DNA of 41,372 nt. Source: Candidatus Nanopelagicales bacterium. Lineage in GTDB: Bacteria; Actinomycetota; Actinomycetes; S36-B12. The stretch lies in assembly GCA_017857175.1 (NCBI GenBank), contig JAFMDS010000015.1, forward strand, positions 1 to 41,372. Reading direction: 5' to 3'. The notes beneath the pieces were generated by a model that worked only from the letters and a program-made list of their open reading frames with translations, ran no database searches and was not told the origin of the DNA. The position numbers and the translations under genes are program-made. This document shows, one piece after another, positions 3,544 through 34,021 of the stretch (position 1 is the stretch's first letter; every line of letters begins with the position of its first letter).

Positions 3544-5486
3544 CCCAAGGAACACTCAATACACAGTGGACTCGAGGGAATGAGAACCCGACTGGTCATG
3601 ACGCGTGTTGGGTCTTTTGTGGCTGCCCACCCACTGAGAAGTTCCCCGGAAACATCACGGAACCAGAGAACATTTAAGTCAAGTGAACCATCCACTTGCA
3701 GGGCAAAGTTGACGTAATCCAGTGCCGGTTCTTCATAGGGAAAAGGCGGCAGGTTGGCATAGAACTTTTGCTGATTGGTGGAAAGAACTCCTGTCAAAGA
3801 ATTAACCCACAGATTGGGCAGGGTTCCCGACCCGTCCCACATGAAGGGGGTCCAATCAGGGTCCTTCGCCGCTACCTCTGCTGAGCGCAGGATTGCTTCA
3901 CCGATCAAGGTGTTGGCCACACCCTCCTTGCGATCTTTGCTCGCCTGGATTCCAGGCGCCGCAGTGAAACCTGGCGAGAGTTCTGTTTGTGTAGTTCCCA
4001 CATAGCCATAGGCAACGGTGCCAATAAGAATGACGCCAAACGCCACGACCACCTGCTGGGAGAAACGCAGATCGTTCATGATCTTCACCGTGATGACGGC
4101 TACCAGCCCCAACACAATGGGGAAGTAAGCAATCAGTGCGCCATCTAGTGCTTTCAACACGTAATAGGAGGCAATGCGACTCACATTTGATGAGTCAGCA
4201 CCGAGTGCAAATACGCCACCAATCAGTGTGAAAAACACGGGTGGGCCAGCGATCCCGATTGCTGTTAATCGATTATTTTTCGATGTAAAAAAGATGAGAG
4301 CGAGTGCAAGAACAGGCATGGCAAGTGCGAGGGAAATGTTGAATGCGGGCATGCCAACGCCGACAGCACCAATTTCACTATTGAGCTCACCTGCGCTACC
4401 GCCGGGTCGAATAATTGCCTGCGCCTGGGTATAGGCCAGCCAGCCCGCAATCAACCCACTCACTGCCAGCCACGCAAGTGCAATGGATTTTCTCGACAAC
4501 CAAAGGGCGTGAAGGACTACTAATCCCGCAGGAATGAGACCGAGGACAAGTGGAGTCCAGAGGTTGATGGAAACAATCGCGGCACATGGAATGACAAACC
4601 AGCCGATGTACTTCGAGGTATGCGCTGATGTGGTCGAGATATAACTTGCCAGTGCAACAACCGTGACACCCATGATGAAGTTGGAAAAGCCAGCGTTGAA
4701 CATCAGTGGTGGACTTCCGAGAGTCACAAATAGTGCCGCCAAGATGAATCCGAGCGCTCCCGCAAACTTCTTTCCAGTCACCCGTTGAGCAACATCACCT
4801 GCCATCCAAGACAGTGCAGCTATGCAGGCGGCAAATGAAATTGCCTGCCAGGTTATATATGGAAAGAGCAGCCCAATCCGGCTTAGTCCCGCACCACCGA
4901 ATGCGTATTGCCCAATTGACCAAGCGGTTGTGTGCAGGGAGGGATACCACTGGTTGAACGCTTCGCTGCCGTCAATAGTGGGCCAGGTGGTGCTCCCCAC
5001 CGCATAAGTGTTGGAGAAGGTGATGAAATGCCCTTGGTTGTCCCAGCCTGTGAAGAACATGCCACTGAGGGTTTCGTAATCAGTCGTACCGATGTAGGAA
5101 CTCAACAACCAAAATGTTGAGGCCAGGAAAAAACCAAGCATGAAGAAATCAAGTAATCGAACTCGTGGGATCCAAGGAGTGACCCGCAGGCGGGGAATCG
5201 CCCGCATGACCAGAACGAGAATCAATAAACCCACCAGATAGAACCGCGCAGTGTCAGCATTAATGGGAGTTGATCCATTGCGAGGAAAAACAACGGCTAT
5301 CACGGTGAGGCCAACGAGCACCGAGACAATCGCTCGCTCAGAGAGAGTTCTGCCCCATGGGGCTATCGTGCACACGAGCAGCGCGACAGCAATAAACCCA
5401 ACCGGTGGATAAACAAAGAGCAGCGCTATCGCAATAAGTGCTGAGACCACACCCACAATTTCTTGGCGCTTGACCTGATTCATCAT
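3540..5486 (-). CDS. Large polytopic membrane protein (DUF6541-like), probable surface-glycan assembly
   Basis: 648 residues with roughly 12-14 hydrophobic segments (for example VVSALIAIALLFVYPPVGF near the N-terminus) and a soluble C-terminal stretch of about 150 residues after the last membrane span. Size, topology and position beside glycosyltransferase genes resemble the actinobacterial DUF6541 membrane proteins, which look like GT-C glycosyltransferases; that match is from memory and was not searched. A loop with WDNQGHFI after the first membrane block carries acidic residues like those of GT-C enzymes. The start ATG at 5486 overlaps the stop of the upstream DUF4012 gene (ATGA), and its own stop overlaps the next start, so three genes form one translationally coupled unit. 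Confidence 0.7.
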   Translation of the reverse strand: MMNQVKRQEIVGVVSALIAIALLFVYPPVGFIAVALLVCTIAPWGRTLSERAIVSVLVGLTVIAVVFPRNGSTPINADTARFYLVGLLILVLVMRAIPRLRVTPWIPRVRLLDFFMLGFFLASTFWLLSSYIGTTDYETLSGMFFTGWDNQGHFITFSNTYAVGSTTWPTIDGSEAFNQWYPSLHTTAWSIGQYAFGGAGLSRIGLLFPYITWQAISFAACIAALSWMAGDVAQRVTGKKFAGALGFILAALFVTLGSPPLMFNAGFSNFIMGVTVVALASYISTTSAHTSKYIGWFVIPCAAIVSINLWTPLVLGLIPAGLVVLHALWLSRKSIALAWLAVSGLIAGWLAYTQAQAIIRPGGSAGELNSEIGAVGVGMPAFNISLALAMPVLALALIFFTSKNNRLTAIGIAGPPVFFTLIGGVFALGADSSNVSRIASYYVLKALDGALIAYFPIVLGLVAVITVKIMNDLRFSQQVVVAFGVILIGTVAYGYVGTTQTELSPGFTAAPGIQASKDRKEGVANTLIGEAILRSAEVAAKDPDWTPFMWDGSGTLPNLWVNSLTGVLSTNQQKFYANLPPFPYEEPALDYVNFALQVDGSLDLNVLWFRDVSGELLSGWAATKDPTRVMTSRVLIPSSPLCIECSLG

Positions 5487-7435
5487 CGTGTGAAGAGTAT
5501 CTCTGCATTCACCGTTGCCGACTGAACGGCTGACAAAGTCGCGGTGGAATCATTAATTTGAACGCCCGGTTGCTTCGTGGGTGTCCAACCCTCGGGCGCG
5601 GTCACCTGGACGGTGATTGTGGGGGGAACGAACAGGGACTGCGGCTCAGCTTGAATGCGATAACTCAACCTGTTCTCGCTGTTTGTGCTGAACGTACCCG
5701 CAGGGAGTTCATAGGAAATGGAAACCGCACTCTGTCCACCCGGCGGGGTCCAACCCACAAGACGAATCATGCGATGACCGAAGCCGTCATCAACCCAACC
5801 GTCTCCGAGTTGCTGGTGCCCTCGAAATGGACGCACGGTGAAACCGACGGGATAGTTTGCTCTGTAGTCCCGTGCGGCGTCGGGGACATAAAGAACATAT
5901 GCATTCTTGAGCCACATGGTTTCATAGCCCTCGCGCTCAGGTGGTCCCTCGGGGCGGTCAGCGGGTGTGGCGTTCGTCAACGTTAACTGCTGGGTGACGC
6001 GCGCAGAGCCATCCTGTTCCAGATTGACTGTGACCAGAACATTGCGCTGTTGGAATACATCGACCTTGCTTTGATTGCCATTTTGCGTGTACATCGCAGA
6101 CCAGTCGCCTGAATCCGGGTCGGCAACAAAACCCGAGGCCCCTGAATCAAAAGCAAGATTTTCCAGGATGGGATCACGCATCCAGAGTTGGAAATGTCGG
6201 CCGGGGGCCGTACCAGCAATTGCCTGCGCCGCAGGAACAAGATCGCTGCCTGATAGGACTCGGGTCAAGAGTTCATCAAGTAATTTCTGATTTGCATCCT
6301 GGCGTAATTGCCATTGATCAACACCAAAGTCTGCATAGGCATCAACCAAAAGAATCTGGCCGATTTGTTCCCCCGTGACACTGCCGTAGACATCTGATTC
6401 CACCGGACCTGTTGCATCAAGAACTGCCGCAATGGCGGTGAGGTCAATAGCGACAACTCCATCGACTTCGGGGTACGAAGGACCCTCCCAACTTCCACTC
6501 CACGCTTGAGCCATTTCCTGCGCGGAGTACAGGAAGTTCGGGTGGGTGTTCGTCACAACGAATGGATTGTTGCGGGGGTTCTGTGCGAAGAATGGATTCA
6601 GTGCCGGCCCAAACCAGTTGACTTTGGCATTAACCGGAGGAAATAGTTGAGTACTAGTTTGTCCCTTGATGGGGATGTTGATGCGACCATCGTCAAACTC
6701 AATCATGATCAGTGATAGTGGTGCTCCACCACTTGCACGCATCTCTGCTTGATTACCAATCGCAATTAAATAGCGCTTGGCACCATTGGCGCCCAGTGCA
6801 TCGGAAAGAACTGGCGCGATATCTGCCAATGTTCCCACTGCTTGCTGCACCGGATCGAGCTCGCTCAGAGCCTTGTTGACCACACGTTCCAAGGGACCGG
6901 TGGCAAAAGTCCCCGTGATGATGTTTTCCAAATCGGATTTCGCCATGTCGATGGCGTATTTGGCACCGTTAACCTCCGCTGGCAACACATCGAGTCGCGC
7001 CAGATCCACTCGACCATCAGTGAAAATTCGATCGCCGCCATTTTGACCCGATAGATCCCCATAAAGTCCAATTAATTGCCCTGTTGCCATGGAGATATTT
7101 GCCGCTGCATCGACCGAGTTTTGCCAGTTGTCGACAGCGGTCCCCACTCCTGGAACAAATCCCATGAGCCGAACTTGTGATGTATCCACTGACTTGAGCA
7201 TCCACACGGTGGAGTCATCGGCCTGCTGAAACTCAAACTCACCCTCGGTGTATTCACCCGCGAGCAGCCCATCGGCCGCGGACGAGAGGTGCGATTGCAG
7301 CCCCCACCCACCCCACGCCAGAGTTGTAAATGAGGCAATAAGTCCGGCTTGCAGCCAGAAAATGAACCCGCCAACTATCAGGACCAATGCGCCCAAAATC
7401 CCAACTTTGAGTCGGGAATTGGTTGTTGCAGGCAC
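5483..7435 (-). CDS. DUF4012-domain membrane-anchored extracellular protein
   Basis: 650 residues. One N-terminal membrane anchor (about residues 10-30) is followed by a long extracellular part. The central DUF4012 signature is recognisable: a KRYLIAIGNQAEMRASGG stretch near residue 225, followed by TNTHPNFLYSAQEM and a VDGVVAIDLTA segment. This family occurs in actinobacterial and other Gram-positive exopolysaccharide clusters, but its reaction is unknown. The start is a GTG at 7435 without a clear Shine-Dalgarno, 26 bases beyond the upstream gene's stop. It leads the ATGA-coupled trio 7435-1333 and probably shares a transcript with the glycosylphosphotransferase. Confidence 0.8.
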   Translation of the reverse strand: MPATTNSRLKVGILGALVLIVGGFIFWLQAGLIASFTTLAWGGWGLQSHLSSAADGLLAGEYTEGEFEFQQADDSTVWMLKSVDTSQVRLMGFVPGVGTAVDNWQNSVDAAANISMATGQLIGLYGDLSGQNGGDRIFTDGRVDLARLDVLPAEVNGAKYAIDMAKSDLENIITGTFATGPLERVVNKALSELDPVQQAVGTLADIAPVLSDALGANGAKRYLIAIGNQAEMRASGGAPLSLIMIEFDDGRINIPIKGQTSTQLFPPVNAKVNWFGPALNPFFAQNPRNNPFVVTNTHPNFLYSAQEMAQAWSGSWEGPSYPEVDGVVAIDLTAIAAVLDATGPVESDVYGSVTGEQIGQILLVDAYADFGVDQWQLRQDANQKLLDELLTRVLSGSDLVPAAQAIAGTAPGRHFQLWMRDPILENLAFDSGASGFVADPDSGDWSAMYTQNGNQSKVDVFQQRNVLVTVNLEQDGSARVTQQLTLTNATPADRPEGPPEREGYETMWLKNAYVLYVPDAARDYRANYPVGFTVRPFRGHQQLGDGWVDDGFGHRMIRLVGWTPPGGQSAVSISYELPAGTFSTNSENRLSYRIQAEPQSLFVPPTITVQVTAPEGWTPTKQPGVQINDSTATLSAVQSATVNAEILFTR

Positions 7436-7461
7436 TTAGCGAGTATAAGTGCCGCAGGTGG

Positions 7462-9033
7462 TTAGTACGCGCCCTTGCCCGTGAGGACCACTTTGACGGT
7501 TTTTGCCACAATCACTAGGTCGAGGGCCGCTGACCAATGCTCGACATAGTCCAGATCCAGGCGCATACGCTCATCCCAGTCCACGGCCTTGCGCCCTGAG
7601 ACTTGCCAGAGGCCTGTTAGGCCAGGCTTGGTCAGGTGACGGCGGTGGTCTTCATCCCCGAACAGGGGGATTTCATCGAGCAGAACCGGCCGTGGACCCA
7701 CGAGGGACATGCTGCCGCTGATGACGTTGACAATTTGGGGCATTTCATCGATAGACCAGCGCCGCAGGACCCGACCGAAACTGGTAATGCGTGGGTCGTG
7801 TTTATAACGCTCGCCTATTCGCTCATCGGGCATCCCAATGACTTCAGCTCGAACCTGATCGGCCCCGACATGCATGGTTCGGAACTTGGTCACCGTGATG
7901 ACTTCGCCACCGCGGCCAATTCGTTGTTGCTTATAAAACACTGGGCCACGGCTTGAGGCAAAGATCCCTGCGGCGGCAATTAACATGAAGGGCAGGAACA
8001 CGACAAAGAGAATTGCGCCAAAAACTATGTCGATAGCGCGTTTGATTGCCCGTTTGGAACCGGTCAGATGCGGTTCATCTAGGTGAATGAGTGGTAGGTC
8101 TGCTTGCATACGCATTGTGACGCGCGGACCGGCAAAGTCACCGAGTGTTGGTGCAACGAGAAGATCAATGCGCGGGCCCTCAAGGCGCCACGAAAGTTTC
8201 TTAATTACATTCTGGCTCAATGCATGTGATCCGGTGACTGCAACCGTGTCCACGTCGTTGATCTCAATGCGTGCCATGACTTCATCGAGCCACATTTTCA
8301 ATTCTGCTTCATCGCAGCCTTCAACGGGTTCTTCCAAGACATCAACAACAACAAATCCCGCGACAGGGTCGCGATCGAGCATGTCAGAGATTTCTTCTTG
8401 TCGAGCACCATTACCCACAACCATGGTGCGGTGCAAGTAGTTTCCGTATCGACGTTCATGTCGCAACCATGCCCGCAATAACCATCGAGCTATGAGTAAC
8501 AGCGTTAGACCTGCAACAAATGTAATCAACACAAAACCGCGTGAAAGATCTAATTTGAATGCGAATGCCACAATCGCAACGAGTGCGAAGAGTCCGGCGG
8601 ATGCGGTGACAATTCGTTTGAATTCCTCTGAACCAACACCAAGCACCCGGGTGTCATAGGCGCCGCGCACAACGAGTGCGATCACCCATGAAAAGACAAC
8701 GACCAGTGCGAACACAACGTATGTACCGTCAGAGATATTCAGGTTGTAGGGAATTGTCCAGCGGAGTACGAAACCAATGGTGGCGGCTGCAACAACCGCA
8801 ATACTGTCCCAGATCACGGCCCTGCTGGCGTAGACCCGAAGTGGATCACGGCGCTGGTGTGGGCGGTCCCGATGGCGATCGGTGGTAGCCCACCCTTGCT
8901 TTTCATGGGCCTCTAGGGCAATGCGCCGCCATGTTCCTGTGTCACTGATATTTGAGCCGCCAGCCGCGGAGTCAGCCAATTGATCCGCATGCCGTGCGGC
9001 CTCAATCTCCCCTGGCTGAATTTCACTGGACAC
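7462..9033 (-). CDS. Polyprenyl glycosylphosphotransferase (exopolysaccharide-initiating sugar transferase)
   Basis: 523 residues with the WbaP/WcaJ-like architecture: about four membrane helices (73-185), a central nucleotide-binding-like domain (about 200-310), and a C-terminal bacterial sugar transferase domain after a membrane re-entry helix (332-355). Diagnostic motifs are KFRTMH (383-388), DPRITSFGRVLRRWSIDEMPQ-type segment (413-433), SLVGPRP (443-449) and KPGLTGLWQVSGR (469-481). The enzyme transfers a hexose-1-phosphate from a nucleotide sugar to undecaprenyl phosphate at the cytoplasmic face, the first step of lipid-linked glycan assembly. The start is GTG at 9033. It is the first gene of the leftward glycan block. 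The sugar it uses cannot be told from sequence. Confidence 0.9.
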   Translation of the reverse strand: MSSEIQPGEIEAARHADQLADSAAGGSNISDTGTWRRIALEAHEKQGWATTDRHRDRPHQRRDPLRVYASRAVIWDSIAVVAAATIGFVLRWTIPYNLNISDGTYVVFALVVVFSWVIALVVRGAYDTRVLGVGSEEFKRIVTASAGLFALVAIVAFAFKLDLSRGFVLITFVAGLTLLLIARWLLRAWLRHERRYGNYLHRTMVVGNGARQEEISDMLDRDPVAGFVVVDVLEEPVEGCDEAELKMWLDEVMARIEINDVDTVAVTGSHALSQNVIKKLSWRLEGPRIDLLVAPTLGDFAGPRVTMRMQADLPLIHLDEPHLTGSKRAIKRAIDIVFGAILFVVFLPFMLIAAAGIFASSRGPVFYKQQRIGRGGEVITVTKFRTMHVGADQVRAEVIGMPDERIGERYKHDPRITSFGRVLRRWSIDEMPQIVNVISGSMSLVGPRPVLLDEIPLFGDEDHRRHLTKPGLTGLWQVSGRKAVDWDERMRLDLDYVEHWSAALDLVIVAKTVKVVLTGKGAY

Positions 9034-9805: not shown

Positions 9806-10570
9806 ATGACCACTGTCGTTTCTATTCACTCATTCCGTGGGGGCACCGGCAAAAGCAACACGACGTCAAACCTCGCTGCCCAGCTCACGGCAATGGGACA
9901 TCGCGTAGGCGTTGTAGACACAGATATTCAAAGCCCCGGTATCCACGTGCTTTTCGGTTTTTCTGACGATCTCGACAACACTTTAAATGACTATTTGTGG
10001 GGCAAAATCAAAATTGCTGATGCCGCCCACGAAGTCACACACATCATCTCCCAAGACACTCCCGTTGCCGAGGGTGGCGCGCTCTATCTCATTCCATCCA
10101 GTATGAAAGCTGGCGATATCGCACGGGTCCTGCGCGAGGGTTACGACGTTGGCACTCTCAACGATGGCTTCCGTGACTTGGCACGCGATCTCAATCTCGA
10201 CTACCTCCTCATTGACACCCACCCTGGTTTGAACGAAGAAACGTTGCTCTCCATCACGATCAGCGATGTCCTACTCCTTATCCTCCGCCCCGATCGCCAG
10301 GACTTCCAAGGAACCGCCGTGACCGTGGACGTTGCTCGCAAACTACAGGTGCCCAATTTGTTCCTCGTGGTGAACAAGGTTCCATCAAATATTGATACCG
10401 CGGATCTGCGGGAACAAATGAAAACTGCTTATGCTGCCGATGTGGCAGCGATCCTGCCGTTGTCTGAGGAAGTTGTTCAGAATGCTTCAGGTGGTCTGTT
10501 CTCACTCACCAGCCCGGATCATGATTGGTCCGCCCAAATCCGCGAAATTGCCACGGCTGTCACCCAGTAG
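9806..10570 (+). CDS. ParA/MinD-like P-loop ATPase with altered signature lysine (RGGTGKS)
   Basis: 254 residues from the ATG at 9806, which has a strong AAAGGGAG ribosome site (about 9793-9800); an upstream in-frame start at 9704 adds 34 unlikely residues. The N-terminus reads SIHSFRGGTGKSN (6-18): the deviant Walker A of ParA/MinD is KGGxGK(S/T), so the signature lysine that normally reaches across the dimer is Arg here. The rest is family-typical: VDTDIQSPGIHVLFGF (switch I region), LLIDTHPGLNEETL (Walker B region) and LFLVVNKVPS. Such ATPases position or regulate membrane-associated complexes. From memory, very similar FRGGTGKSN proteins occur in cyanobacteria, which was not checked. It is convergent with the GNAT gene, with a one-base gap between stops. 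Confidence 0.85.
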   Translation: MTTVVSIHSFRGGTGKSNTTSNLAAQLTAMGHRVGVVDTDIQSPGIHVLFGFSDDLDNTLNDYLWGKIKIADAAHEVTHIISQDTPVAEGGALYLIPSSMKAGDIARVLREGYDVGTLNDGFRDLARDLNLDYLLIDTHPGLNEETLLSITISDVLLLILRPDRQDFQGTAVTVDVARKLQVPNLFLVVNKVPSNIDTADLREQMKTAYAADVAAILPLSEEVVQNASGGLFSLTSPDHDWSAQIREIATAVTQ

Positions 10571-10571
10571 G

Positions 10572-11213
10572 TCAACCCGTGGCACGTTGCACAACAGCAT
10601 GGTCAGGCGGTAGGTCGTAGTGGTCCAACAAGAATGCGGAAGCACCTTTACGGCCCAACTCGGTCAAACTGTGTGCTGACATGTTGTAACCAACAAGTGT
10701 CATGTCAAAAAACTCTAGAGGTTCATGATCACGCCAATGCATTCCATGAAACGGTTCCGAATAAGTAATAGGAAGGGGTGAAAACCCCCATAATGCCCAG
10801 GACGGAAGTAATGCGGGCTCAGACTCTGCGACAACACCCAAACAAGATGCCCCAAGATCCAATGCAACGAGTTCTACAGCGTGTTCCACCAAAAACTGTG
10901 ACACCTTTGTGCCTCCAAACTCACGGCCCTGAAATTCCGGGGCGACCGCAAGAAAATGAATCAATCCAACTTTGCGATCCCTATTTGAGTGCACCACCAC
11001 GAATCCGGCAGGAATGTCATCAACTAAACAAAGCACTTGGTGCAAAACACATTTCTCTTGCTCCCTTGGAATCCTGGCATTTTCGCGCAGTTCATCCAGT
11101 ACATGTGGATGCTCTGGGAACGCTTGGGCATGTAACACGAGGAGTTCTTCCAAATGTGGAGCATCACTCACTCCTGCAAGTTCGATCACCTTTAAGTTGT
11201 TGCGCACCTGCAC
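10572..11213 (-). CDS. GNAT-family N-acetyltransferase
   Basis: 213 residues. The acetyl-CoA-binding core of the GNAT fold is visible: beta4 'GLIHFLAVAPEFQGREFGGTKV' region (about 100-121) holds the motif A pattern Q-G-x-x-x-G/G, followed by a helix and a further beta strand (ASCLGVVAES). The C-terminal 60 residues are not typical and may shape the acceptor site. The acceptor is unknown. A GTG start at 11213 is taken; a second in-frame GTG lies two codons in, and the short upstream leader shows no good ribosome site. It is divergent from the carrier gene, with 40 bases between starts, and convergent with the ParA-like gene, which suggests these three genes belong together. Confidence 0.8.
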   Translation of the reverse strand: MQVRNNLKVIELAGVSDAPHLEELLVLHAQAFPEHPHVLDELRENARIPREQEKCVLHQVLCLVDDIPAGFVVVHSNRDRKVGLIHFLAVAPEFQGREFGGTKVSQFLVEHAVELVALDLGASCLGVVAESEPALLPSWALWGFSPLPITYSEPFHGMHWRDHEPLEFFDMTLVGYNMSAHSLTELGRKGASAFLLDHYDLPPDHAVVQRATG

Positions 11214-11253
11214 ACACTAGCCCCATTTCTCCATTTCACGACAGGATAAATCC

Positions 11254-12696
11254 ATGAGAGAAGTACCACCGCCCGCAGAGAATGGTGAAGATGACCCCTG
11301 GGGTTTTGTGACAGACCGCGTCAAACGCGATCCAGTTACTCCTGACATTAGTGGAAATGATTCCGCTGCGACTGAATTAACAAAAGGCGCAAGGCTCAAT
11401 GATGCGGGTAGTGAAAGCGCAATGCAGGCATTACGCCGTCGCGCACGTCCACTCGCCATTGCGGCCGCATTGGTCTACCTATTCGGTTTGATGACTGAAG
11501 TTGTCATCGCCAGCAGGTTTGTGTCTGAACTTGGTCCCATCGCTCTGGTCATTATCTACCCCCTCGGTGCCATTGGACTTATTTCAGTAGCACTTGTGCA
11601 AATAAAATGGATCGATCGCATTCCCCGCGCGCGCGCATTCAAATTCGTTACCCTGGGCTACGGCGCCGCCTTTGTTATCGGCCTAATTTTCGTTGCGATT
11701 CCCTCAACAACAGTATGGGGCACGGGTGCCGTTTGGTTGATCGCCGATCAATTGAACTTCTTGCTTCCACTCATTGTCTGGGCGCTTATTGGTGACCTTT
11801 TCAATGCTGGTGAAGGGCGCAAGATTTACCCTTGGATCACTACCTGGCAATACGGGGGCCAACTCATTGGTCTCGCGATCCCCGCACTCGCACCATTACT
11901 CTTCATTCCACTTGGAATTCCTTTGCCATGGCTATTGGTTGTTTGCCCCATTGGAATAGTCGCTCTTGGATTCCTTTTACCGCGGGCCTTGAAGGATCGC
12001 TCCATCAGTCGGGGACATGGACGAGACGAAAGCCTCGGTGAGTCCTTCCGGTCTGCATGGCAGTTTGTTGGTGGTGTTAAAGCGTTTCGCGCCATGTTCG
12101 TTACATCAATATTTGTGTTCATTGCTGGTATGTCACTTGAGGCATCCTTTGTCAGTTCGGCTGACCGAATATTGGGTGATGCAGCCAAACTACAAATTGT
12201 CTATGGCGGAACCCTTGTTGTTGTATTCGCAATCGCAACAACTTTGCACCTTTTCTATACAACCAAACTATTAGAAAAATTCAATATTCCAGGCTCACTC
12301 ATGGTGTTGCCTATTTTCACGATCTCCGCTTCAATCGTGCTAATTGCGGGCCTAGCTTTCGATTTCTTGCCGGTTCTCATCATCGGAATTATCGCCTGGT
12401 GGGTGCCGCGCTGGAGTATCGATGAAGTCGCTCGCCGAGCATCACTAGCACTCGTCCCAGACGAAAAAAGGGCCCGCGTGTCATTCCTGGTTGATCTCGT
12501 GCCTTTCGCATCAGGACTGTTAGTGGCCGGTGGCATAACGTGGATCGTCGCGACCTTAGATCTACCGATCGCCGCCCCCGTTATTGCATTGCCATTTGCC
12601 ATCGTGGCACTGATCGCAGCGCAGATTATGCGAAAGAATTGGCAGGAATCACTCCTTGACCCAAGTTTGCGGCGACGCAAGCGGTTATCTGGGTAA
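11254..12696 (+). CDS. 12-TM carrier, MFS-like, Npt1/ADP-ATP-translocase-type
   Basis: 480 residues: a hydrophilic N-terminal tail of about 65 residues, then about 12 membrane helices. The second half carries features I associate with the Npt1-like branch of MFS proteins: a helix reading LFYTTKLLEKFNIPGSL (related to the LxxRFG pattern), and later SLALVPDEKRARVSFLVDLV followed by a helix, matching the P-E-x-R-A-R-V segment of that branch. In other bacteria these carriers are often fused or adjacent to HEAT repeats, cyclases or cNMP-binding domains, which fits the cNMP-binding gene nearby. The substrate is unknown. It is convergent with the sensor operon, whose last stop is 11 bases away. Confidence 0.65.
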   Translation: MREVPPPAENGEDDPWGFVTDRVKRDPVTPDISGNDSAATELTKGARLNDAGSESAMQALRRRARPLAIAAALVYLFGLMTEVVIASRFVSELGPIALVIIYPLGAIGLISVALVQIKWIDRIPRARAFKFVTLGYGAAFVIGLIFVAIPSTTVWGTGAVWLIADQLNFLLPLIVWALIGDLFNAGEGRKIYPWITTWQYGGQLIGLAIPALAPLLFIPLGIPLPWLLVVCPIGIVALGFLLPRALKDRSISRGHGRDESLGESFRSAWQFVGGVKAFRAMFVTSIFVFIAGMSLEASFVSSADRILGDAAKLQIVYGGTLVVVFAIATTLHLFYTTKLLEKFNIPGSLMVLPIFTISASIVLIAGLAFDFLPVLIIGIIAWWVPRWSIDEVARRASLALVPDEKRARVSFLVDLVPFASGLLVAGGITWIVATLDLPIAAPVIALPFAIVALIAAQIMRKNWQESLLDPSLRRRKRLSG

Positions 12697-12706
12697 CAAG
12701 GAACTA

Positions 12707-13786
12707 CTAGGTAGTTGCCAGACCGTCATCATCTGGCGCTGATTCCTTCATGCGACTACGCATTGTTTGAGCTCGCTCTGCAATTCCTGCAAAGAAGTCT
12801 GACTCAAGGATTTCAGCAACAGCAGCTTCCTTCTTGCTTGAATCAATTTCCACTTTGAGTCGGGTCACTTCCTGCGTCAGTTTCTTCTCACGAGATTGGA
12901 CCTTTTCAACCATCAGTGCAAATCGTTCACCTAAGGTCGCCAGCTCGTCTGGTATCAGTGTGTCTGTCACTGAACTCAAGTCAATGTCGTATTCACCATC
13001 GGCGATACGGGTGGTCACTGCGGTCAGTCGCTTAAGGGGCCGGGTCAGCCACGTGGACACCAGCAACACCAGTGCCAACAGTACGAGATAACTGATAACC
13101 AAGATCGGTACCACAACCGCAATTGCACCCTGACGTGTCTCATCCACATAAGTCAATGGGTAGTCGATGCCGAGTCCGGCAACTACGTCACCAGCCTGAT
13201 TCGTTACCGGCGTGTACGTTGAGATCCATCCACCATTTGTGTCGTAGTAGGGCTCCTCATTAGTTGTAGCCGAAAGACCTGCCGCCATGTTGTTGTAGGT
13301 TGTTTCACCCACGACGTCACTGACCGGCTGGCGATATTGCACGGTGAAGTTTGGGTCTGGATCAAGCGCAGACCACGACGTCAGCCATCGCAAGGTGCCA
13401 TCGTTTGGATCCATGAAATATGTGTAAGGGCTCGACTGTGGAACTATCTCACGAATGTCCATGAGTTCAGTATTCAATCGTTCGTACTCTTCAGCACTAG
13501 GACCAGATTGGAGGAAGGGGTTGTTTGTGTCCGCCTCTGTAACACTCGCCAAAAGTTCTTGCATGGATTCTGCATCCAACTGAATTGCTCCACCCACTGC
13601 AGTTTCCTTCAACTGCTGAACAACTTTCGCCTGTGCTTCATTGGTGACATAAAGAATAATGAAGTAAGCAAGCACACTAAAGATTAATGTGAACGCGAGT
13701 GTAAACGCGGTTACGAGCTTTAGTCTCAGACCTAGTTTGAGTCTTTTTTTGGTTGATTTCGATCCAACGGAACTTTCTTGACTCAC
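12707..13786 (-). CDS. Membrane sensor: extracytoplasmic sensor domain, HAMP, C-terminal coiled-coil motif, no output domain
   Basis: 359 residues. TM1 (about 24-47), an extracytoplasmic sensor domain (48-219; Cache-like, with a YTYFMDPNDG strand and a GWISTYTPVTNQAGDVVAG final strand), TM2 (220-245), HAMP (247-300; TRPLKRLTAVT...IADGEYD), then a coiled coil ending with VEIDSSKKE...VAEILES and about 30 more residues. The protein stops there: no kinase, cyclase, GGDEF or chemotaxis signalling domain. The C-terminal 40 residues match the neighbouring sensor closely. The GTG start at 13786 overlaps the upstream stop (GTGA). It is the last gene of the five-gene coupled operon. It probably signals through protein-protein contact of the shared tail; the ligand is unknown. 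Confidence 0.75.
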   Translation of the reverse strand: MSQESSVGSKSTKKRLKLGLRLKLVTAFTLAFTLIFSVLAYFIILYVTNEAQAKVVQQLKETAVGGAIQLDAESMQELLASVTEADTNNPFLQSGPSAEEYERLNTELMDIREIVPQSSPYTYFMDPNDGTLRWLTSWSALDPDPNFTVQYRQPVSDVVGETTYNNMAAGLSATTNEEPYYDTNGGWISTYTPVTNQAGDVVAGLGIDYPLTYVDETRQGAIAVVVPILVISYLVLLALVLLVSTWLTRPLKRLTAVTTRIADGEYDIDLSSVTDTLIPDELATLGERFALMVEKVQSREKKLTQEVTRLKVEIDSSKKEAAVAEILESDFFAGIAERAQTMRSRMKESAPDDDGLATT

Positions 13787-15198
13787 GTCCGGTCCCCATC
13801 TTCCTTGTGTCGCCTGCGAAACTCTTCCGCCTGGCTCTGGATGTTCCTGAAATACTCCGTGTCAGTGATCTCAGAGACCGCTGTTTCGACTTTACCCTTG
13901 TCAATTTCAACTCGAAGGATCGCCACCTGCTCGCGCAATTTGCGTTCGCGTTCAACGATTTCCACACCAATGTCTCGGAAGGTTCGAGCTAAATCTCCAA
14001 CTTCATCATTTCTTTGCGCTGCGGAATCCAAAATAGTTGGATCAAATTCACCGTTGGCAAGATCCTGAGCAGCTCGAGTAATGCTCGATACCGGCCGAAC
14101 AATACGACGACTGATGATTAAGCCACCTGCAAGTCCAATAATCAGCACGATGAAGCCAACAAGGGCCTGTTGTAACGCGAGTGAAAGCCCTGGAGCATTC
14201 AGCTCGCTCGCGGGGACGGCAGAAACCAATATCCACTCCAGTGGGGTGAACGTGGAAATATTAAGTTCCCACGCTTCCGTTTCTCCATTGCGCAAGGCCA
14301 CATCAACAGACTCCGTGACTAACTCACCATCTTGAGCCGGGGCAATGGCCACAATATTACTGGTCAATGCTCGCCCTTGATCTGAATTGGTAAGTACGGT
14401 CAAATCCCTATTGCTGGGTGAAACCACAACATCGGAATCACGATTCACAATGAAGAAGAAACCGTCATTACTAAACGTAACTTCAGAGAATGAAGCCGCG
14501 AGTACATCTTGAACTGCGACTAGTCGAGCTTGCGCAGCCGCATCAATGTCATCAACGTAAACGCCAGTTCCAATAATCCAGTCCCATGGTTCGTAATGAA
14601 AGACGTATCCGATTTTAGGTTTGGGCTCAGTTTCGTTGAGCCTGACCCACTGGTAATCGATGTATCCACTGCCCTCATTCAAAGCGATGTCCCTGATCTC
14701 TCGAAGGACAAATTTGCCATCGGCATCCTGCATGTCAATGAGATTCTGACCTTGGAACTTGGTGTCCGGGTGCGCGATTGCTGTCATTTCTGTGTTGTAG
14801 GTGAAAAAGTAGTCATCGTTGCCAAATCGGACGTTGCGCAACATGTTTTTTGCACGCTCTTGGGCATTGACCTGAGAAATTTGGCCCGACTCGACAGCTC
14901 CAACAAGTTGATCAAGGCCTGATATCAGGGGCTGACTTACATCTTTCAGTTCTGCCCGCCGCTGTTCCAAGGCAGCTTGACGGACAGCTTCCACATTGTC
15001 ATATTCGACTGAAATCAAAGTTGCAACCGAGGTGTGAATGTTGCTTACAGATTCACTGGACTCATTGAACATTGCTGTTTGCACACTACGAAGAGAGAAG
15101 GCGATCGTAATAACAGCCGACGCACCAAGAAGTACAGCTATCAGCAACGCTAAACGCTGGGATAGCGTGAATCGAGTTCGCCGAGAATCAGTTACCAC
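13783..15198 (-). CDS. Double-Cache membrane sensor with HAMP and shared C-terminal motif, no output domain
   Basis: 471 residues. TM1 (16-36), an sCache_2-type domain (about 60-220) with the diagnostic DDYFFTY, HPDTKFQGQNLIDM.DADG and EPWDWIIGTGVYVDDID elements, a second Cache-like lobe (240-330; DGFFFIVNRDSDVVVSP), TM2 (345-363), HAMP (365-418), and a coiled-coil tail (419-465) with VEIDKGKVE...VSEITDTEYF. sCache_2 domains commonly sense small carboxylates. It resembles a chemoreceptor cut off after HAMP. Its GTG start shares one base with the upstream stop (TAGTG) and its stop overlaps the next gene by four bases, so it sits inside a tightly coupled operon. Partner proteins that read its signal are not identified. 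Confidence 0.8.
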   Translation of the reverse strand: MVTDSRRTRFTLSQRLALLIAVLLGASAVITIAFSLRSVQTAMFNESSESVSNIHTSVATLISVEYDNVEAVRQAALEQRRAELKDVSQPLISGLDQLVGAVESGQISQVNAQERAKNMLRNVRFGNDDYFFTYNTEMTAIAHPDTKFQGQNLIDMQDADGKFVLREIRDIALNEGSGYIDYQWVRLNETEPKPKIGYVFHYEPWDWIIGTGVYVDDIDAAAQARLVAVQDVLAASFSEVTFSNDGFFFIVNRDSDVVVSPSNRDLTVLTNSDQGRALTSNIVAIAPAQDGELVTESVDVALRNGETEAWELNISTFTPLEWILVSAVPASELNAPGLSLALQQALVGFIVLIIGLAGGLIISRRIVRPVSSITRAAQDLANGEFDPTILDSAAQRNDEVGDLARTFRDIGVEIVERERKLREQVAILRVEIDKGKVETAVSEITDTEYFRNIQSQAEEFRRRHKEDGDRT

Positions 15199-17408
15199 TA
15201 CCCCAGACCGCCAATGCGATCCAAGATGTCAGCAGCGCCACTCTTCACCGCGCGCTTTTGCACCACAGAGAGAATGCCATCGGTTTCCCTGACCGCGCCG
15301 TCTTGGCGCAAGAGGTCGAGAGCTTTGCGCAATTCGGTTGGCTGCATCTCTGGAAGTATTTCTTGGAGTTGATCCTGCGACACTGAACCAGCCCTAAGGA
15401 TGGCTGAAACAATCTTGCGTTCCTCTGGAGTGCGGTCCAGCATCCCTGACATGCCCGCAGAGATTGCACCGCGACTCAGGCTCCGCACAACAACATCGTC
15501 AACAGCGGTCGCATCCTCAACCCGCTGTTCCCCCATGGTGAGGCGTAAGTCGCCGCAATGCATACCTGGGGCAAGAACAGCAACCCTTCGGGAGTTTCCT
15601 TCAGCGTCCCTCGTTGCTATTTCCACATGACCCGAAATCACAAAGATCACCCGGTCGGCGGGATCTCCAGCCCGGTAGAGAGGCATACCCGGCTCAAAGC
15701 GCTCCGTGACCAACTTGGCGTAGAGCGATTCTCCTGCGTCATCACCCAAACCGAGAACACTCAGATCCACGTCAGTGGTGAGCAGTCGACTTTCCCAGAG
15801 TCGGGAGTAGGCAGTGTCTGCAACGAGCAACTCCTGGTGAGTCCCCACCTGAGTTCCTCGAGAGTCAACGAATATCAGTCGTGACACATCGTGGGCTACA
15901 TCAACGTCCCTGGCCGTAAGTACAACGATGCCAATTCCTCGTGCTCGAATACTGGCGATCAAAGGTAAGGCAGTATCGCTGTCAGCCAGCGCGAGGATGG
16001 GGCCGATGAAGAGCACCTCAGGAGCGGCAGCAAGAGCACACGCCACCTCTAGTCGCTGCCGTTGGTTGACCGTCAATCGATTCCCCGCAGGGCCAATTTC
16101 TTCAAAACGTCGGTCCACTAACTCAGGTAATCCAACTGCCTCGAGTAGTTCACCCACCTGCTCCTCGGTGATGTCAGCATCCATTGCCCGTAGGAATGAC
16201 ATGGGTGAAGCATTGATGGTGAGTGGCTCAGCTGTGACATGTTGAACATGTGTATTGACATGGGGAAGGCGAAGCAGGTGACCATCGGTGGACATGCGCC
16301 AGTCCGCTGGATCATCACTTCCCGTCAAAATGGAAAGGTATGAGTCAATGTCGATTTCCGGTGTTGCCACGATTCCGATTACTGATCCCGGCTCAACCCC
16401 TAATGCATCCAGTGTGATGTCAGTGCGCAAGTGGCGCAGGTCAACCAACGGTGGTGGAATCTCACTGTCAAGCATGAGTTGATCAATGCGATTGCGACTT
16501 TCCAGGGCCAACTGCAAAGATCTTATCCAGACCGGGAGCGCCTCAAGGCCTTTAACCACAGATTCGATGTACAACAGTGATGCCGCCACTACCGCGATTT
16601 CATCCTCGCCCATTCCCACGGCAATAATGACGACAACAATCAACCCTGCGAGTCCGGCACTATGTGCCCCCGTGATCAGCCGCGTGGATAGGACACCTTG
16701 ACGGTGCCACGCATGGGCAAACTTTTCATTTCTCTTGTGGTACCGGGCTTCCATCCATCGAATTAAATGCAGACCACTGATTGGTTTGGCTGAGGTAACT
16801 GCTTCATCAACCACTTCACCGACACGGGTACGGGCCTCCAAAGCCTCTCTATCGGCTTTGAGCATTGCTCGACCAATGAAATGACGAATAACAATGAACA
16901 AAATGACTGCAATGAACATGGTCAGTCCGGCATTTGGTGCAATCACTGTGAGCAAAGACATGCTGATGATAATTCGAACTATTGATGGAATTCCATAGGC
17001 AAGAGTCTGCTCAAAAGCTTCTGCAACATTGTCCACGTCAGTTGTGTGACGTGCAACAATCGATGAACGCATCAGGCTCACAGATCCCTCTGACTTGCCA
17101 CGCATTAAGCGATCGAATACGCGCTCACGTAACACAGTGCCGCTGGTGATGGTCAAGTCATGTGCTCCGAGGTGGCCCCAGTGGCCAGCAACAAGTTGCA
17201 CGATCACCAGGGTGAGAAGAATCGCCACCGCGTTGGTGCTCCACTCCCCATGATGAAGAATCGATTCGACCTGTAGGGGAACGACAGCCTGCGTCGCCAA
17301 CATCACCACGAGGAGAAAAATTGTCCCAGCGAAGACTCGAGTTGTCCCTCGAAGGTTGACGCGATACCAACGCCACAGTCCGGCGTACGACGAGGATGAA
17401 TGTGCCAT
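15198..17408 (-). CDS. Pseudo-ABC exporter with degenerate nucleotide-binding domain fused to a cNMP-binding-like domain
   Basis: 736 residues. Residues 20-300 form a type-1 ABC-exporter membrane domain with about six helices. Residues 330-545 align to an ABC nucleotide-binding domain, but every catalytic motif is replaced: the Walker A position reads GIVATPEIDIDS (345-356, no GxxGxGKS), the signature is LTVNQ (445-449, not LSGGQ), Walker B/Glu is LFIGPILALAD (466-476, no DE), and the H-loop is LTARD (497-501, no His). ATP hydrolysis is therefore unlikely. Residues 565-650 are a Crp/cNMP-binding-like beta-roll (ERFEPGMPLYRAGDPADRV...ISGHVEI); its phosphate cassette is weak (GDLRLTMGEQRVEDA). 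A winged-helix-like segment (675-715) follows. It overlaps its neighbours by one base on each side. It probably acts as a membrane signalling scaffold. Confidence 0.75.
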   Translation of the reverse strand: MAHSSSSYAGLWRWYRVNLRGTTRVFAGTIFLLVVMLATQAVVPLQVESILHHGEWSTNAVAILLTLVIVQLVAGHWGHLGAHDLTITSGTVLRERVFDRLMRGKSEGSVSLMRSSIVARHTTDVDNVAEAFEQTLAYGIPSIVRIIISMSLLTVIAPNAGLTMFIAVILFIVIRHFIGRAMLKADREALEARTRVGEVVDEAVTSAKPISGLHLIRWMEARYHKRNEKFAHAWHRQGVLSTRLITGAHSAGLAGLIVVVIIAVGMGEDEIAVVAASLLYIESVVKGLEALPVWIRSLQLALESRNRIDQLMLDSEIPPPLVDLRHLRTDITLDALGVEPGSVIGIVATPEIDIDSYLSILTGSDDPADWRMSTDGHLLRLPHVNTHVQHVTAEPLTINASPMSFLRAMDADITEEQVGELLEAVGLPELVDRRFEEIGPAGNRLTVNQRQRLEVACALAAAPEVLFIGPILALADSDTALPLIASIRARGIGIVVLTARDVDVAHDVSRLIFVDSRGTQVGTHQELLVADTAYSRLWESRLLTTDVDLSVLGLGDDAGESLYAKLVTERFEPGMPLYRAGDPADRVIFVISGHVEIATRDAEGNSRRVAVLAPGMHCGDLRLTMGEQRVEDATAVDDVVVRSLSRGAISAGMSGMLDRTPEERKIVSAILRAGSVSQDQLQEILPEMQPTELRKALDLLRQDGAVRETDGILSVVQKRAVKSGAADILDRIGGLG

Positions 17409-18712
17409 TAGCTCAGGTAAATACGAACGGGAATCGTTGTCAGCGTGATTGCTGAGTTAGGTCCGGCTTCCTGACAGTTCTGCAATGGATCACACACTAG
17501 TTGAGAGTTTTCCGGTGTTGTGTAAACCGCTTCGCCCTTCTCAGCCCATGCCACAATCCACTTGGAGTCCGTGGAACTGAAATCGCAGATCACGGCATCA
17601 CCCTCAGTTGCACAGCCATCGAATGATGCACCAACAACCCAGTTGTCCAAGGCAAAGAAACCTTGCTCTGAATCAGATCCCGCAAAAGCTTGGATTCCCA
17701 AAATATCAATCGGACGCAAGCTCCAGATGTACCAATAGGAACGCTCAATGTTGTAGCGGAGGTCATCGATGTAGGTGCGAACAACGAAACCCGCAGCGTT
17801 GGCACCGGTGATTTCCTGCTTGGGAATGTCACCCGGCCCCGCAAGGCCGTAGTTCAACTCGGTATCCCAGAGGGGAAGATCGGGCGCACCCGCGGCAACG
17901 AGTGCCTCCTGTGCCTTCTTGATCAGTAGTCCACGAACTGCGGGGTCACCCAGACCATCAGGGTAAGTATGGATGGCGAAGACATCTACCGGCCAGCCTA
18001 ATTTGCCAAGTTCGGCCAGGTACTCCGGGTAAAACCGATCAAATGCAGCGGTCAGTCGGAGTGTGGGAGACGGTGCGACCACGAGAGCGGTGGGGTCGTT
18101 CTTCTTGATAATGTCGTAGGCGCGCTTGGTCATCTCGGCCATCTCAGCTGGAGTGCCGTTATAGAAATTTTTGAGGTTGACTTCATTCCAAATTTGATAA
18201 GCCTCAAATTGACCCGTGTATTTGGTCGTGACCGTCTCTACCCAATTATCCCAGTCAGCGAGATCCTTGGGGGCGCCAGCAGCTCCGGGCTGCGGGTAGT
18301 CGGTGTCTTTGATCTTTTGTGTCGCCCACTCAGGTGTAGTACCTAAGACGAGCATCACATTGTTCATGCCTTTGGATTGGGCATTGGCCAATGAACCATC
18401 GATGTTGGCCCAGTTGTAAACGCCTTTTTCGGTTTCAATCTGGGACCAAGCCGTGCCGTTATCCCACAGGCGAAGTGCCCCAAAGGGCGCAGAAGCCCAA
18501 GCGCCACCTTCGACACCTTCAATGTGCATACCTATGGTTGCGGGTGGCACCGCATTCTCTGGAACAACAACTGCCGCCTCGGTGGCCGCCTCGGTGGCAG
18601 CGGGTTCACCGCTGCCACCCGAGCACGCACTCAGTACTAATGCACCCGTGACGACTAGAGCGCTGAGCGCTACTGCAGATTTGCTGCTTGTCCTGCGGGT
18701 GTTCCAAACCAT
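17408..18712 (-). CDS. Lipoprotein glycoside hydrolase-like protein, clan GH-A (GH39/GH5-like)
   Basis: 434 residues with a lipoprotein signal peptide (lipobox LSAC, Cys30), then a low-complexity Ala/Glu/Thr linker and a (beta/alpha)8-barrel from about residue 57. Clan GH-A catalytic residues are in place: acid/base Glu177 in QIWNEVNL and nucleophile Glu285 in LWDTELNYG, with HTYPDG (248-253) on strand 6. A roughly 70-residue beta-rich C-terminal tail has a paired-Cys loop (VCDPLQNCQEA). It is predicted to be an outer-surface membrane-anchored glycosidase with unknown substrate. It is paralogous to the gene just upstream. The ATG at 18712 gives a 43-base overlap with that gene, and the stop shares one base with the pseudo-ABC start (TAATG). 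Confidence 0.8.
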   Translation of the reverse strand: MVWNTRRTSSKSAVALSALVVTGALVLSACSGGSGEPAATEAATEAAVVVPENAVPPATIGMHIEGVEGGAWASAPFGALRLWDNGTAWSQIETEKGVYNWANIDGSLANAQSKGMNNVMLVLGTTPEWATQKIKDTDYPQPGAAGAPKDLADWDNWVETVTTKYTGQFEAYQIWNEVNLKNFYNGTPAEMAEMTKRAYDIIKKNDPTALVVAPSPTLRLTAAFDRFYPEYLAELGKLGWPVDVFAIHTYPDGLGDPAVRGLLIKKAQEALVAAGAPDLPLWDTELNYGLAGPGDIPKQEITGANAAGFVVRTYIDDLRYNIERSYWYIWSLRPIDILGIQAFAGSDSEQGFFALDNWVVGASFDGCATEGDAVICDFSSTDSKWIVAWAEKGEAVYTTPENSQLVCDPLQNCQEAGPNSAITLTTIPVRIYLS

Positions 18713-19917
18713 AGTGGCATGTTTCCAATCGTTACTTGAGTTCCTGGTGTCACGGCTGAGCAGTTGTTCAACGCATCACACTGAACAGTTGCATTTGCAG
18801 GAACAGTGTACGTCCCAGAACCTTGTGACACCCAAGCGATGGCCTCAGGGTTGTCGTTATTGCCCAATTGACACACATTGGTCCCGGAGACGGTTCCACA
18901 GGTGTAATAGGAGCCAGCCAGCCACTGATTGACTGTTTGATAGCCAACAGCCCCTGTCGTTCCATCTTGAAGGGTGATGCCAATCAAATTATCTGCTGGA
19001 GCCCAGTAATACCAGTAGCTGCGCTCAACCCCGAGCAAAATGTTGTCCAAATAGGTTTGGGCAACCCATGAGGCAGCCTGCGCTCCCGTGATGCTCTGGC
19101 CCTTGACCTTGCCCGGTCCGCGGATTCCGTAATTGACCTCGGTGTCCCACAGAGCTTTGGATGCCGGAACCTTGGCCTTCTTCATGTCACCTTGAACCTT
19201 CTCGATGTAATCGACCCGAGTACCTGGATTTCCTTTGCCATCTGGATAGGTATGAACCGCGATGACATCGACCGGCCACTTGGCTTTCTTGAGCGCCTTG
19301 AGATAGGCGGGGAAGAAGCGCTTATAAGAACTGGCTAACCGCACCGTGCTGCTGGCGGACACAATCTTGGCTGTTGGGTCATTTTTACGAATAATTTTTG
19401 CCGCTGCCTTGGTGAGGTCAGCCATTTGCTTGGGAGTGCCTGCCCAGAAATTGGTCAGATCGGCTTCGTTCCAGATCTGATAAGACTCGATGCTGTCTCC
19501 GTAACGCTTGGTCACGGCGTTGACCCAACTCTTCCAATCCTTCATTTTCGGCACCGATGCAGCGCCTTTGTTGGGGTAAGTGCCCTGCTTCTTATTCGTC
19601 GCAGCCCATGTTGGCGTACCCCCAAGGACATAAAGAATTTGGACATTTTGGGTATTTGCATTACCAATTGCCGCATCCATGCCATTCCACCAATAAAAAT
19701 TCTTCTTTTGCTCCACCTGACCCCACGTAATACCTGAGTCCCAGAGTCGAATCGACCCATAGGTCACGCCTGGATCTGTGCCGATCGAGATGGTCGGCAC
19801 GTGCATGCCGAAAGTTGGTTCAGGCAGTGGTCCGGCAGCTTGGGCGGCCGGAAGTGCAATAAGCGAACTCCCTGCAACCGCGAGGGAGAGGGCTGCCGCA
19901 ATGATGGATCGACGCAT
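18670..19917 (-). CDS. Secreted glycoside hydrolase-like protein, clan GH-A, paralogue of the next gene
   Basis: 415 residues from the ATG at 19917, preceded by AAAGG about 10 bases upstream and followed by a clear Sec signal peptide (MRRSII..., cleavage after AQA). The same barrel as its neighbour: acid/base Glu151 in QIWNEADL, VHTYPDG (221-227), nucleophile Glu260 in LWDTEVNYG, an aromatic SYWYYWAP strand, and a C-terminal beta-rich tail with a QCDALNNC loop. It is soluble rather than lipid-anchored. It is the first gene of the five-gene operon, and the 82-base leader contains TAGGTT as a possible -10. A longer reading frame to 20064 was not used because it would overlap the methyltransferase gene and add a non-signal N-terminus. 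Confidence 0.8.
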   Translation of the reverse strand: MRRSIIAAALSLAVAGSSLIALPAAQAAGPLPEPTFGMHVPTISIGTDPGVTYGSIRLWDSGITWGQVEQKKNFYWWNGMDAAIGNANTQNVQILYVLGGTPTWAATNKKQGTYPNKGAASVPKMKDWKSWVNAVTKRYGDSIESYQIWNEADLTNFWAGTPKQMADLTKAAAKIIRKNDPTAKIVSASSTVRLASSYKRFFPAYLKALKKAKWPVDVIAVHTYPDGKGNPGTRVDYIEKVQGDMKKAKVPASKALWDTEVNYGIRGPGKVKGQSITGAQAASWVAQTYLDNILLGVERSYWYYWAPADNLIGITLQDGTTGAVGYQTVNQWLAGSYYTCGTVSGTNVCQLGNNDNPEAIAWVSQGSGTYTVPANATVQCDALNNCSAVTPGTQVTIGNMPLWFGTPAGQAANLQ

Positions 19918-32656: not shown

Positions 32657-34021
32657 ATGGCAGCATCCCTTGGTTTGAGATACGCGGCTAAAAGTGATGT
32701 TGGATTGGTGCGCCAAGGTAATGAGGATTCGGGTTATGTCGGTCCTCGCCTACTCTTGGTTGCTGATGGCATGGGTGGACATGCCGCAGGAGAGCTCGCG
32801 TCATCGCTTGCAATAGCAACAGTTGCTGACCTAGATGTTCATCCGCCAACAAATGCTGATGTTCTCACTTCACTTGCTGAGGCGATTGACAATGTTGGTG
32901 ATGCAATTGGTGAGTTGATCGCAGACGATCCTGATCTCACCGGAATGGGAACGACAATCACGGGTTTGTATTGGTTGGGTGGACGCATTGCTGTTGTTCA
33001 CGTTGGTGATTCACGCGCATACCTCTTTCGCGACAATGAACTCATTCAACTCACACACGACCACACCTATGTCCAAACACTTGTTGACTCAGGTCGTATC
33101 ACTGAAGAAGAAGCATCTGTGCATCCACGTAGATCACTTTTGATGCGCGCACTTGATGGCATGAATCCGGTTGAAGCAGATTTGTCCGTGCGCGAAGCGC
33201 GCTCCGGTGATCGTTTTCTTCTCTGCTCTGATGGCCTTTCGGGGGTGGTTCGAGACACAGAGATCGCAGATCTGTTGAGTACAGGAGAGCCAACTGGTGT
33301 GGTCACACGTTTGGTTGATCTCGCATTGGAGCGCGGCGCACCCGATAACGTCACCGTTGTCGTCGCCGACGTCGTTGAACGACCTGCGGATGAAGAGCTA
33401 CCCCTAACTCCACCAGTCGTTGTCGGTGCAGCGGGCGAACCACGTGTACGCCTTCAGCTGCCTAACACCCGATTCCCTGATGACGCCCAGCCTGATCCTG
33501 ATAGACCCGATGCCCCAGCGCCCATTGACGGTGGACCTGAAACAGCGCCGCAGATATTGATCGATTCTGAACTAATCGTTCCCGCCGCTGAGCAGGCTCG
33601 TTATGACGCCGAAGCTGCCGACATTGCGCGAGCTGACAAGAAAAGTAAGCGCCGCAAAGTAATTGGGGTTGTCGGAGGAATCCTTGTAGTTGCTGCAATC
33701 ACTGCAGGAACCCTTTTTGGGATACAAAGTTGGGTTACCTCGCAGTGGTATGTCTCCATTAATGGCAGCGCTGGGACTGGAACAGTTGCCATCTATAACG
33801 GTGTGCAAGGTTCCTTGGCTGGCATCAAGCTCTCCGGTATCGACACAGACTCTGGACTAATGGTCGGATCCCTGCCACTTTTTGATCAAGAGTTGGTGAG
33901 TAAAGGGATCCCCGCCGCAAGTTACGAAGACGCCCAAAGAATTGTGGCTGAACTCCAGTCCCGTGCTGCCGAATGCCAAGCACTCATCCCGCCACAAGGG
34001 TGCCCGGGGAGTTTGCAGTGA
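32657..34021 (+). CDS. pstP: PP2C Ser/Thr protein phosphatase PstP
   Basis: 454 residues. The N-terminal 240 are a PP2C catalytic domain with metal-site motifs GNEDSG, DGMGGHAAGE (37-46), GDSRAYLF, DGLSG and PDNVTVVVAD, followed by a proline-rich linker, one membrane helix (about 330-352) and a small extracellular C-terminus. It reverses PknB phosphorylation and is encoded within the same operon, the typical actinobacterial arrangement. The following rodA GTG overlaps its stop (GTGA). Confidence 0.93.
   Translation: MAASLGLRYAAKSDVGLVRQGNEDSGYVGPRLLLVADGMGGHAAGELASSLAIATVADLDVHPPTNADVLTSLAEAIDNVGDAIGELIADDPDLTGMGTTITGLYWLGGRIAVVHVGDSRAYLFRDNELIQLTHDHTYVQTLVDSGRITEEEASVHPRRSLLMRALDGMNPVEADLSVREARSGDRFLLCSDGLSGVVRDTEIADLLSTGEPTGVVTRLVDLALERGAPDNVTVVVADVVERPADEELPLTPPVVVGAAGEPRVRLQLPNTRFPDDAQPDPDRPDAPAPIDGGPETAPQILIDSELIVPAAEQARYDAEAADIARADKKSKRRKVIGVVGGILVVAAITAGTLFGIQSWVTSQWYVSINGSAGTGTVAIYNGVQGSLAGIKLSGIDTDSGLMVGSLPLFDQELVSKGIPAASYEDAQRIVAELQSRAAECQALIPPQGCPGSLQ

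Follow-up and report, generated by a model that had tools for sequence, protein, structure and literature searches.

For many bacterial sensors, annotation stops at HAMP or Cache and names no output domain, and a 10-kb stretch of the genome of Candidatus Nanopelagicales bacterium raises the question of how such receptors might pass on a signal. The stretch lies in a contig of 41,372 nt (JAFMDS010000015.1; the whole contig is called the window here), where two HAMP-containing membrane receptors are encoded near a ParA/MinD-type ATPase with the signature RGGTGKS. The original prediction described the receptors as HAMP sensors lacking outputs; we found instead that both end in a conserved C-terminal tail of ~47 residues that ties them to the ATPase. 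We consider it reasonably probable that a widespread signalling system, apparently undescribed so far, is represented in the window, with interchangeable inputs joined to this tail as an output that docks on the ParA protein as a switch. The sole close ParA and both tailed sensors of this 98%-complete genome fall within the 10-kb stretch, as follows (ORF, open reading frame; pLDDT, predicted local distance difference test):

9806-10570, + strand: RGGTGKS ParA/MinD-type ATPase, 254 aa (ORF, Pfam, genome search)
12707-13786, - strand: HAMP1, single-Cache (CitA-like PDC) membrane receptor with HAMP and C-terminal tail (Pfam; model pLDDT 86)
12752-12892, - strand: conserved 47-residue tail of HAMP1, proposed ParA-docking output (alignment, tail model)
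13783-15198, - strand: dCache_2/sCache_2-HAMP membrane receptor with the same tail as HAMP1 (Pfam)
13810-13950, - strand: conserved 47-residue tail of the dCache-HAMP receptor (alignment, tail model)

Alignment of the relatives of both window sensors gave the tail consensus RExxLxxQVxxLxIEIDxxKRxxxVxEITxSDYFxxLQxxAxxxRxR, for which neither a PDB relative (best E 2) nor a convincing Pfam match was found. Among 106 non-redundant tail proteins, most of which carry the tail at or near the C-terminus, the overlapping inputs comprised HAMP (75), dCache_1 (24), sCache_2 (14), dCache_2 (13), sCache_3_2 (13), GAF (11), CHASE2 (9), Tll0287-like (7), cyclic nucleotide monophosphate (cNMP)-binding (7), PAS (7) and receiver (4) domains. 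Since the input domains are so varied, the domain annotation gives the tail the pattern of an output module. Tail-bearing neighbours of ParA include CHASE2 proteins in Cyanobacteria and, in Chloroflexota, soluble cNMP-binding proteins (~250 aa) beside adenylate cyclase genes. One CHASE2 protein (L103:7226-9541) has seven spaced copies of the DYFxxLQxK motif of the tail's second helix, and this repetition within a single protein suggests a multivalent short binding element. In a structure model of HAMP1 built with 24 relatives (pLDDT 86; the single-sequence fold was poor, pLDDT 47), an extracytoplasmic single-Cache domain is followed by two transmembrane helices, HAMP and a long helix that continues into the tail; the helix breaks at residue 329, and a second helix ends the tail (tail pLDDT about 70 to 90). 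The Cache domain resembles that of CitA (Foldseek, template-modelling score about 0.75 by target).

Scanned with the ParA alignment, GTDB contigs yielded 526 relatives, of which the best 80, from Actinomycetota, Cyanobacteria and Chloroflexota (59-85% identity), were used for locus comparison. RGGTGKS ParA relatives adjoin HAMP sensors in these three phyla, in Deinococcota and on a Rhizobium plasmid, so that the recurrent co-localisation in unrelated genomes on which the original prediction staked its single system was found, and its suggested link to cyanobacteria was borne out by the cyanobacterial members of the best 80 loci. The tail model matches in 53 of the 80 loci; it was built from ParA neighbours, and this adjacency is therefore not independent evidence. 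The tail was also searched in 574 whole genomes regardless of ParA (297 of the window's class, 136 Cyanobacteria and 141 Chloroflexota; not all of them complete; no kinship correction was applied to the counts). Tail and close ParA occurred together in 57 genomes and neither occurred in 514, the exceptions being two genomes with a divergent ParA and no tail and one with a weak partial tail match. In the window's class, the 14 genomes with the tail are exactly those with a close ParA, and a fifteenth ParA genome has only a 43% ParA, without the tail. Cyanobacteria carried the tail in 21 of 22 ParA genomes (the sole exception having a divergent ParA) and in none of the 114 others, and Chloroflexota in all 22 ParA genomes and one of the 119 others, the last by a partial match of 26 residues. 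Fisher's test gave p < 1e-22 in each of the three groups, uncorrected for kinship. In 11 of the 57 genomes with both, the tail and ParA genes are unlinked (none within 12 kb of each other): five of these have the two on the same contig, 0.66-2 Mb apart, and six have them on separate contigs. Tail proteins number one to seven per genome. Outside the sampled lineages, Deinococcus and Rhizobium plasmids carry tail proteins adjoining a ParA (54-56% identity), and the two genes overlap by 4 bases in Rhizobium. Because tail and close ParA co-occur across genomes, unlinked cases included, the tail most likely serves to dock the receptors on this ParA, and the ParA would then be the output that they share. 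An accidental gene cluster around an orphan ParA, with the tail an ordinary HAMP coiled coil, would account for the varying gene order and draws on the commonness of HAMP and Cache domains; we give it next to no credence, as it is already contradicted by the near-perfect co-distribution in three groups, unlinked genomes among them, and by the occurrence of just one weak partial tail match in genomes without this ParA family. In one further locus (G239, L046:8352-9972), a truncated ParA runs into what is left of a tail protein, which would fit decay of the module as a unit or a break in the assembly at this point. Within 10 kb of some ParAs on cyanobacterial plasmids (L242-L244) there is no tail gene, the search having been confined to these flanks.

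The window ParA scores above the Pfam cut-offs for ParA, AAA_31 and CbiA, and below the curated NCBIfam cut-offs for minD_arch (83 bits vs. 202) and the KGGVGR ATPase (75 bits vs. 90). The solved structures closest to it by sequence are archaeal MinD, FlhG and FleN. Unlike these, the module's ParA has its signature lysine replaced by arginine (77 of 79 family members), although the P-loop lysine is retained, and it has a different neighbourhood and no C-terminal membrane-targeting helix apparent by eye. It also differs from ParABS partition, as no ParB domain occurs in the module genes or in the recurrent neighbours examined in the 80 loci; parS was not searched. In the ParA tree the Actinomycetota form one supported group, which includes a single Chloroflexi metagenome-assembled genome, and the tree thus speaks against one recent transfer as the source of the distribution. 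Across families of the window's class ParA identity is 72-85%, and that of the module's degenerate ABC-type protein, described below, is mostly 34-47%; the higher conservation of ParA is as expected of a hub. Assignment to a defence system was rejected, PADLOC having matched ParA only weakly, to a candidate system.

In ParA/MinD ATPases, ATP dimers create a partner-binding site, and partner proteins allow them to position cargo, chemotaxis clusters included (PMC10241942). Beyond the observed gene content, recurrence, tail conservation, input diversity and genome co-distribution, we infer a route involving direct tail-ParA binding, ATPase switching, control of the tail by HAMP movement, and effectors. 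Receptors with interchangeable inputs would end in the coiled-coil or helical tail as their output, and the tail would dock on the dedicated RGGTGKS ATPase. Ligand binding to the Cache domain would shift the HAMP coiled coil and the tail, and this shift would change the ATP-dependent dimer state of ParA. ParA would then act on partners with a winged-helix domain (in the window, the dead ABC-cNMP protein) as well as on a carrier and a GNAT protein; in other lineages, likely effectors would include SpoIIE/RsbW/STAS partner switches or PrsW proteases. Judging by the neighbouring genes, the response may involve partner switching, cAMP or transport, depending on the lineage. We lean, if only slightly, towards regarding this as a further class of bacterial signal transduction, in which a generic receptor output tail, shared by eight or more types of input domain across five or more phyla, works through one dedicated ParA-type switch. 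A search of open-access papers, by the motif and by ParA combined with SpoIIE, HAMP or cNMP, gave no description of a tail/ParA system. If the shared tail and its single ATPase are confirmed, many output-less HAMP and Cache sensors would gain a testable pathway, and ParA/MinD ATPases, known for positioning, would gain a direct role in signalling. The finding also supplies candidate partners for some ParA orphans, and the models of tail and ParA can already serve as markers for finding the system.

The ParC/ParP and PpfA/TlpT systems, in which chemoreceptor arrays are positioned, resemble the module in that a short partner element ties a ParA/MinD ATPase to membrane receptors. It is conceivable that the module's ParA likewise positions its receptors, the tail being a cargo tag and signalling proceeding through another output; partner-mediated placement of cargo, chemotaxis clusters included, is a known task of these ATPases (PMC10241942), and a tag would be expected on many proteins, as the tail is. 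However, most tail proteins end in the tail with no other known output domain and would be left output-less, and the tail occurs on the soluble cNMP-binding proteins too. Moreover, the window's module genes encode no CheA, CheW or MCP domain, MCPsignal is not among the top 25 of 45 families in the 106 tail proteins, and the module's element, unlike those of the ParC and PpfA systems, is C-terminal, helical and common to many unrelated inputs. We regard positioning as unlikely, if still a reading to be reckoned with.

Several points weigh against a tail that signals through this ParA. The conserved element is a predicted C-terminal helix, whereas known A/D ATPase partners use a positively charged, disordered N-terminal interaction peptide (PMC10241942). 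Divergent ParA relatives (35-43%) lie in SpoIIE/STAS clusters without a nearby tail, and the wider ParA family, to judge from these, has partners besides the tail. The gene set varies within a genus, one genome (G065) having the degenerate ABC-type gene alone on a separate contig. Lastly, the co-distribution could partly reflect a third partner bound by both tail and ParA. With SiaABCD and SpoIIE-RsbW-STAS systems the module has in common its Cache-HAMP sensors and the SpoIIE, HATPase and STAS genes beside some ParA relatives; it differs in that its window genes include none of these three and its sensors end in the tail rather than in PP2C. Related ParAs (35-58%) were seen in a glgX/AGE epimerase/STAS cluster (L245, L241, L242), accompanied by SpoIIE in both Streptomyces and Deinococcus, and in Streptomyces by RsbW as well.

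The remaining genes and domains of the stretch are as follows (ABC, ATP-binding cassette; NBD, nucleotide-binding domain; MFS, major facilitator superfamily; GH, glycoside hydrolase):

10572-11213, - strand: GNAT-like protein, accessory member (Pfam, neighbourhood counts)
11254-12696, + strand: 12-transmembrane MFS/Npt1-like carrier (ORF, Pfam, family search)
15198-17408, - strand: pseudo-ABC membrane protein with cNMP-binding-like domain and C-terminal winged helix (Pfam, alignment)
15789-16403, - strand: degenerate NBD of the pseudo-ABC protein, without Walker A, Walker B, signature or H-loop (motif check)
15462-15704, - strand: its cNMP-binding-like domain, residues 569-649 (Pfam)
15201-15425, - strand: its C-terminal winged-helix domain, as in the small protein beside ParA elsewhere (profile comparison)
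17408-18712, - strand: GH-like A, GH39-like lipoprotein, local companion, not module core (Pfam, 80-locus neighbourhoods)
18670-19917, - strand: GH-like B, GH39-like exported protein, local companion, not module core (ORF, Pfam, 80-locus neighbourhoods)

The genes proved genuine, and those running leftward overlap by 43, 1, 1 and 4 bases according to the ORF coordinates; the GH-like B ORF has a possible start at 20064, with the signal-peptide Met at 19917. Pfam supports most of the domain identities first proposed: ParA (9e-17), GNAT (8e-6), HAMP (3e-7 and 1e-9), Cache (dCache_2, 7e-50; sCache_2, 2e-43), cNMP_binding (1e-15), ABC_membrane (8e-14) and GH39 (7e-8 and 3e-7). The pseudo-ABC protein was rightly called catalytically dead: ABC exporters keep Walker A, signature, Walker B and H-loop intact, whereas the window protein has lost all four, as has each relative whose alignment spans them, and because of this degeneracy the NBD is judged dead throughout the family. 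Its cNMP cassette reads, by eye, CGD...QR instead of FGE...RxA, and cNMP binding is a prediction. The protein occurs in 11 of the 297 class genomes, in seven genera, all with a close ParA; a search of viral contigs found no relative. The small winged-helix protein beside ParA corresponds to a domain at the C-terminus of second ParAs, and the pseudo-ABC C-terminus matches it by weaker scores. Such a winged-helix protein, or a partner-switching regulator, might be bound by tail and ParA alike without contact between the two. Its position beside ParA, its fusion to second ParAs and the pseudo-ABC protein, and the restriction of strong matches in Chloroflexota to ParA genomes (weaker ones elsewhere look like generic winged helices) would suit such a bridge. 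Of the 22 ParA genomes in Chloroflexota, however, roughly half lack a strong match, and since the domain is absent or too diverged in many tail-ParA genomes it is unlikely to be an obligatory bridge; we hold this alternative to be improbable and prefer direct docking of the tail on ParA. A C-terminal IW/IFxxLG-like motif is common to PrsW-type proteases near ParA, small winged-helix proteins and the pseudo-ABC protein (L090, L092, L110, L116, L118, L125), and may be a second docking motif.

Frequent companions of ParA-HAMP pairs are the Npt1-like carrier, GNAT, and the pseudo-ABC-cNMP or small winged-helix protein. ParA is grouped with the pseudo-ABC protein and the dCache-HAMP sensor in some genomes, with carrier, GNAT, HAMP1 and pseudo-ABC in others, and with HAMP1, GNAT and carrier only in still others; GNAT lies beside ParA in 12 of the 80 loci. 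The trio of ParA, carrier and HAMP is seen again in Anaerolineae, and also in Elainella saxicola, there with a second, diverged ParA. Of the 141 Chloroflexota, 15 have the carrier; every one of these also has ParA, and in 14 the carrier lies within 4 kb of a tail gene, even where ParA is elsewhere. The description of the carrier as Npt1-like is weakly backed: the window carrier gave a sub-threshold MFS_1 match and no TLC (PF03219) match, and one of 14 family members matched the TLC ATP/ADP transporter model (1e-7). This weak TLC likeness, the recurring cNMP domains and a HEAT-repeat relative in a cyanobacterial locus recall NTT/Npt1 and NTT-HEAT-cNBD proteins (PMC5381601); the window carrier, by contrast, has neither HEAT nor cNBD and misses the TLC model, and the part consulted gives no ParA link. 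An apparent ParA-MFS fusion in G065 (L041) was rejected as an artefact of a run of N in the assembly.

The GH pair exceeds the GH39 cut-off (PF01229; 32.2 and 30.1 bits vs. 26), and glycosidase activity is predicted. The overlapping genes suggest co-expression of these proteins with the pseudo-ABC protein and the sensors, which would favour a glycan-sensing and uptake system with the GH pair and pseudo-transporter as its core. However, none of the 80 related ParA loci has a GH relative, the NBD is dead in all relatives, and the Cache domains look like carboxylate sensors; we consider such a system very improbable. As no counterpart exists in related loci, the GH pair is local and outside the recurrent module, contrary to its earlier inclusion in one system. 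Of the glycan or carboxylate sensing once suggested, carboxylate sensing by the window's Cache domains is plausible from their fold relatives, and the GH genes themselves are all that speaks for glycan sensing.

Elsewhere, ParA lies beside genes for a LanM lanthipeptide synthetase and/or a C39-peptidase (NHLP-type) ABC exporter in Nostocales and Pseudanabaena, and a C39 ABC exporter adjoins ParA in an actinobacterium (L111, L243, L053). In the window, genes for an exopolysaccharide glycosylphosphotransferase and a DUF4012 protein adjoin the module (5483-9033), and a cluster of PP2C, FtsW/RodA, penicillin-binding protein (PBP) and PknB(PASTA) genes lies ~12 kb from it (32657-38737). On sequence alone, seemingly the same PP2C-FtsW/RodA-PBP-PknB cluster stands directly beside ParA in the f10 genomes (L019:2076-9294), and this position may be ancestral.
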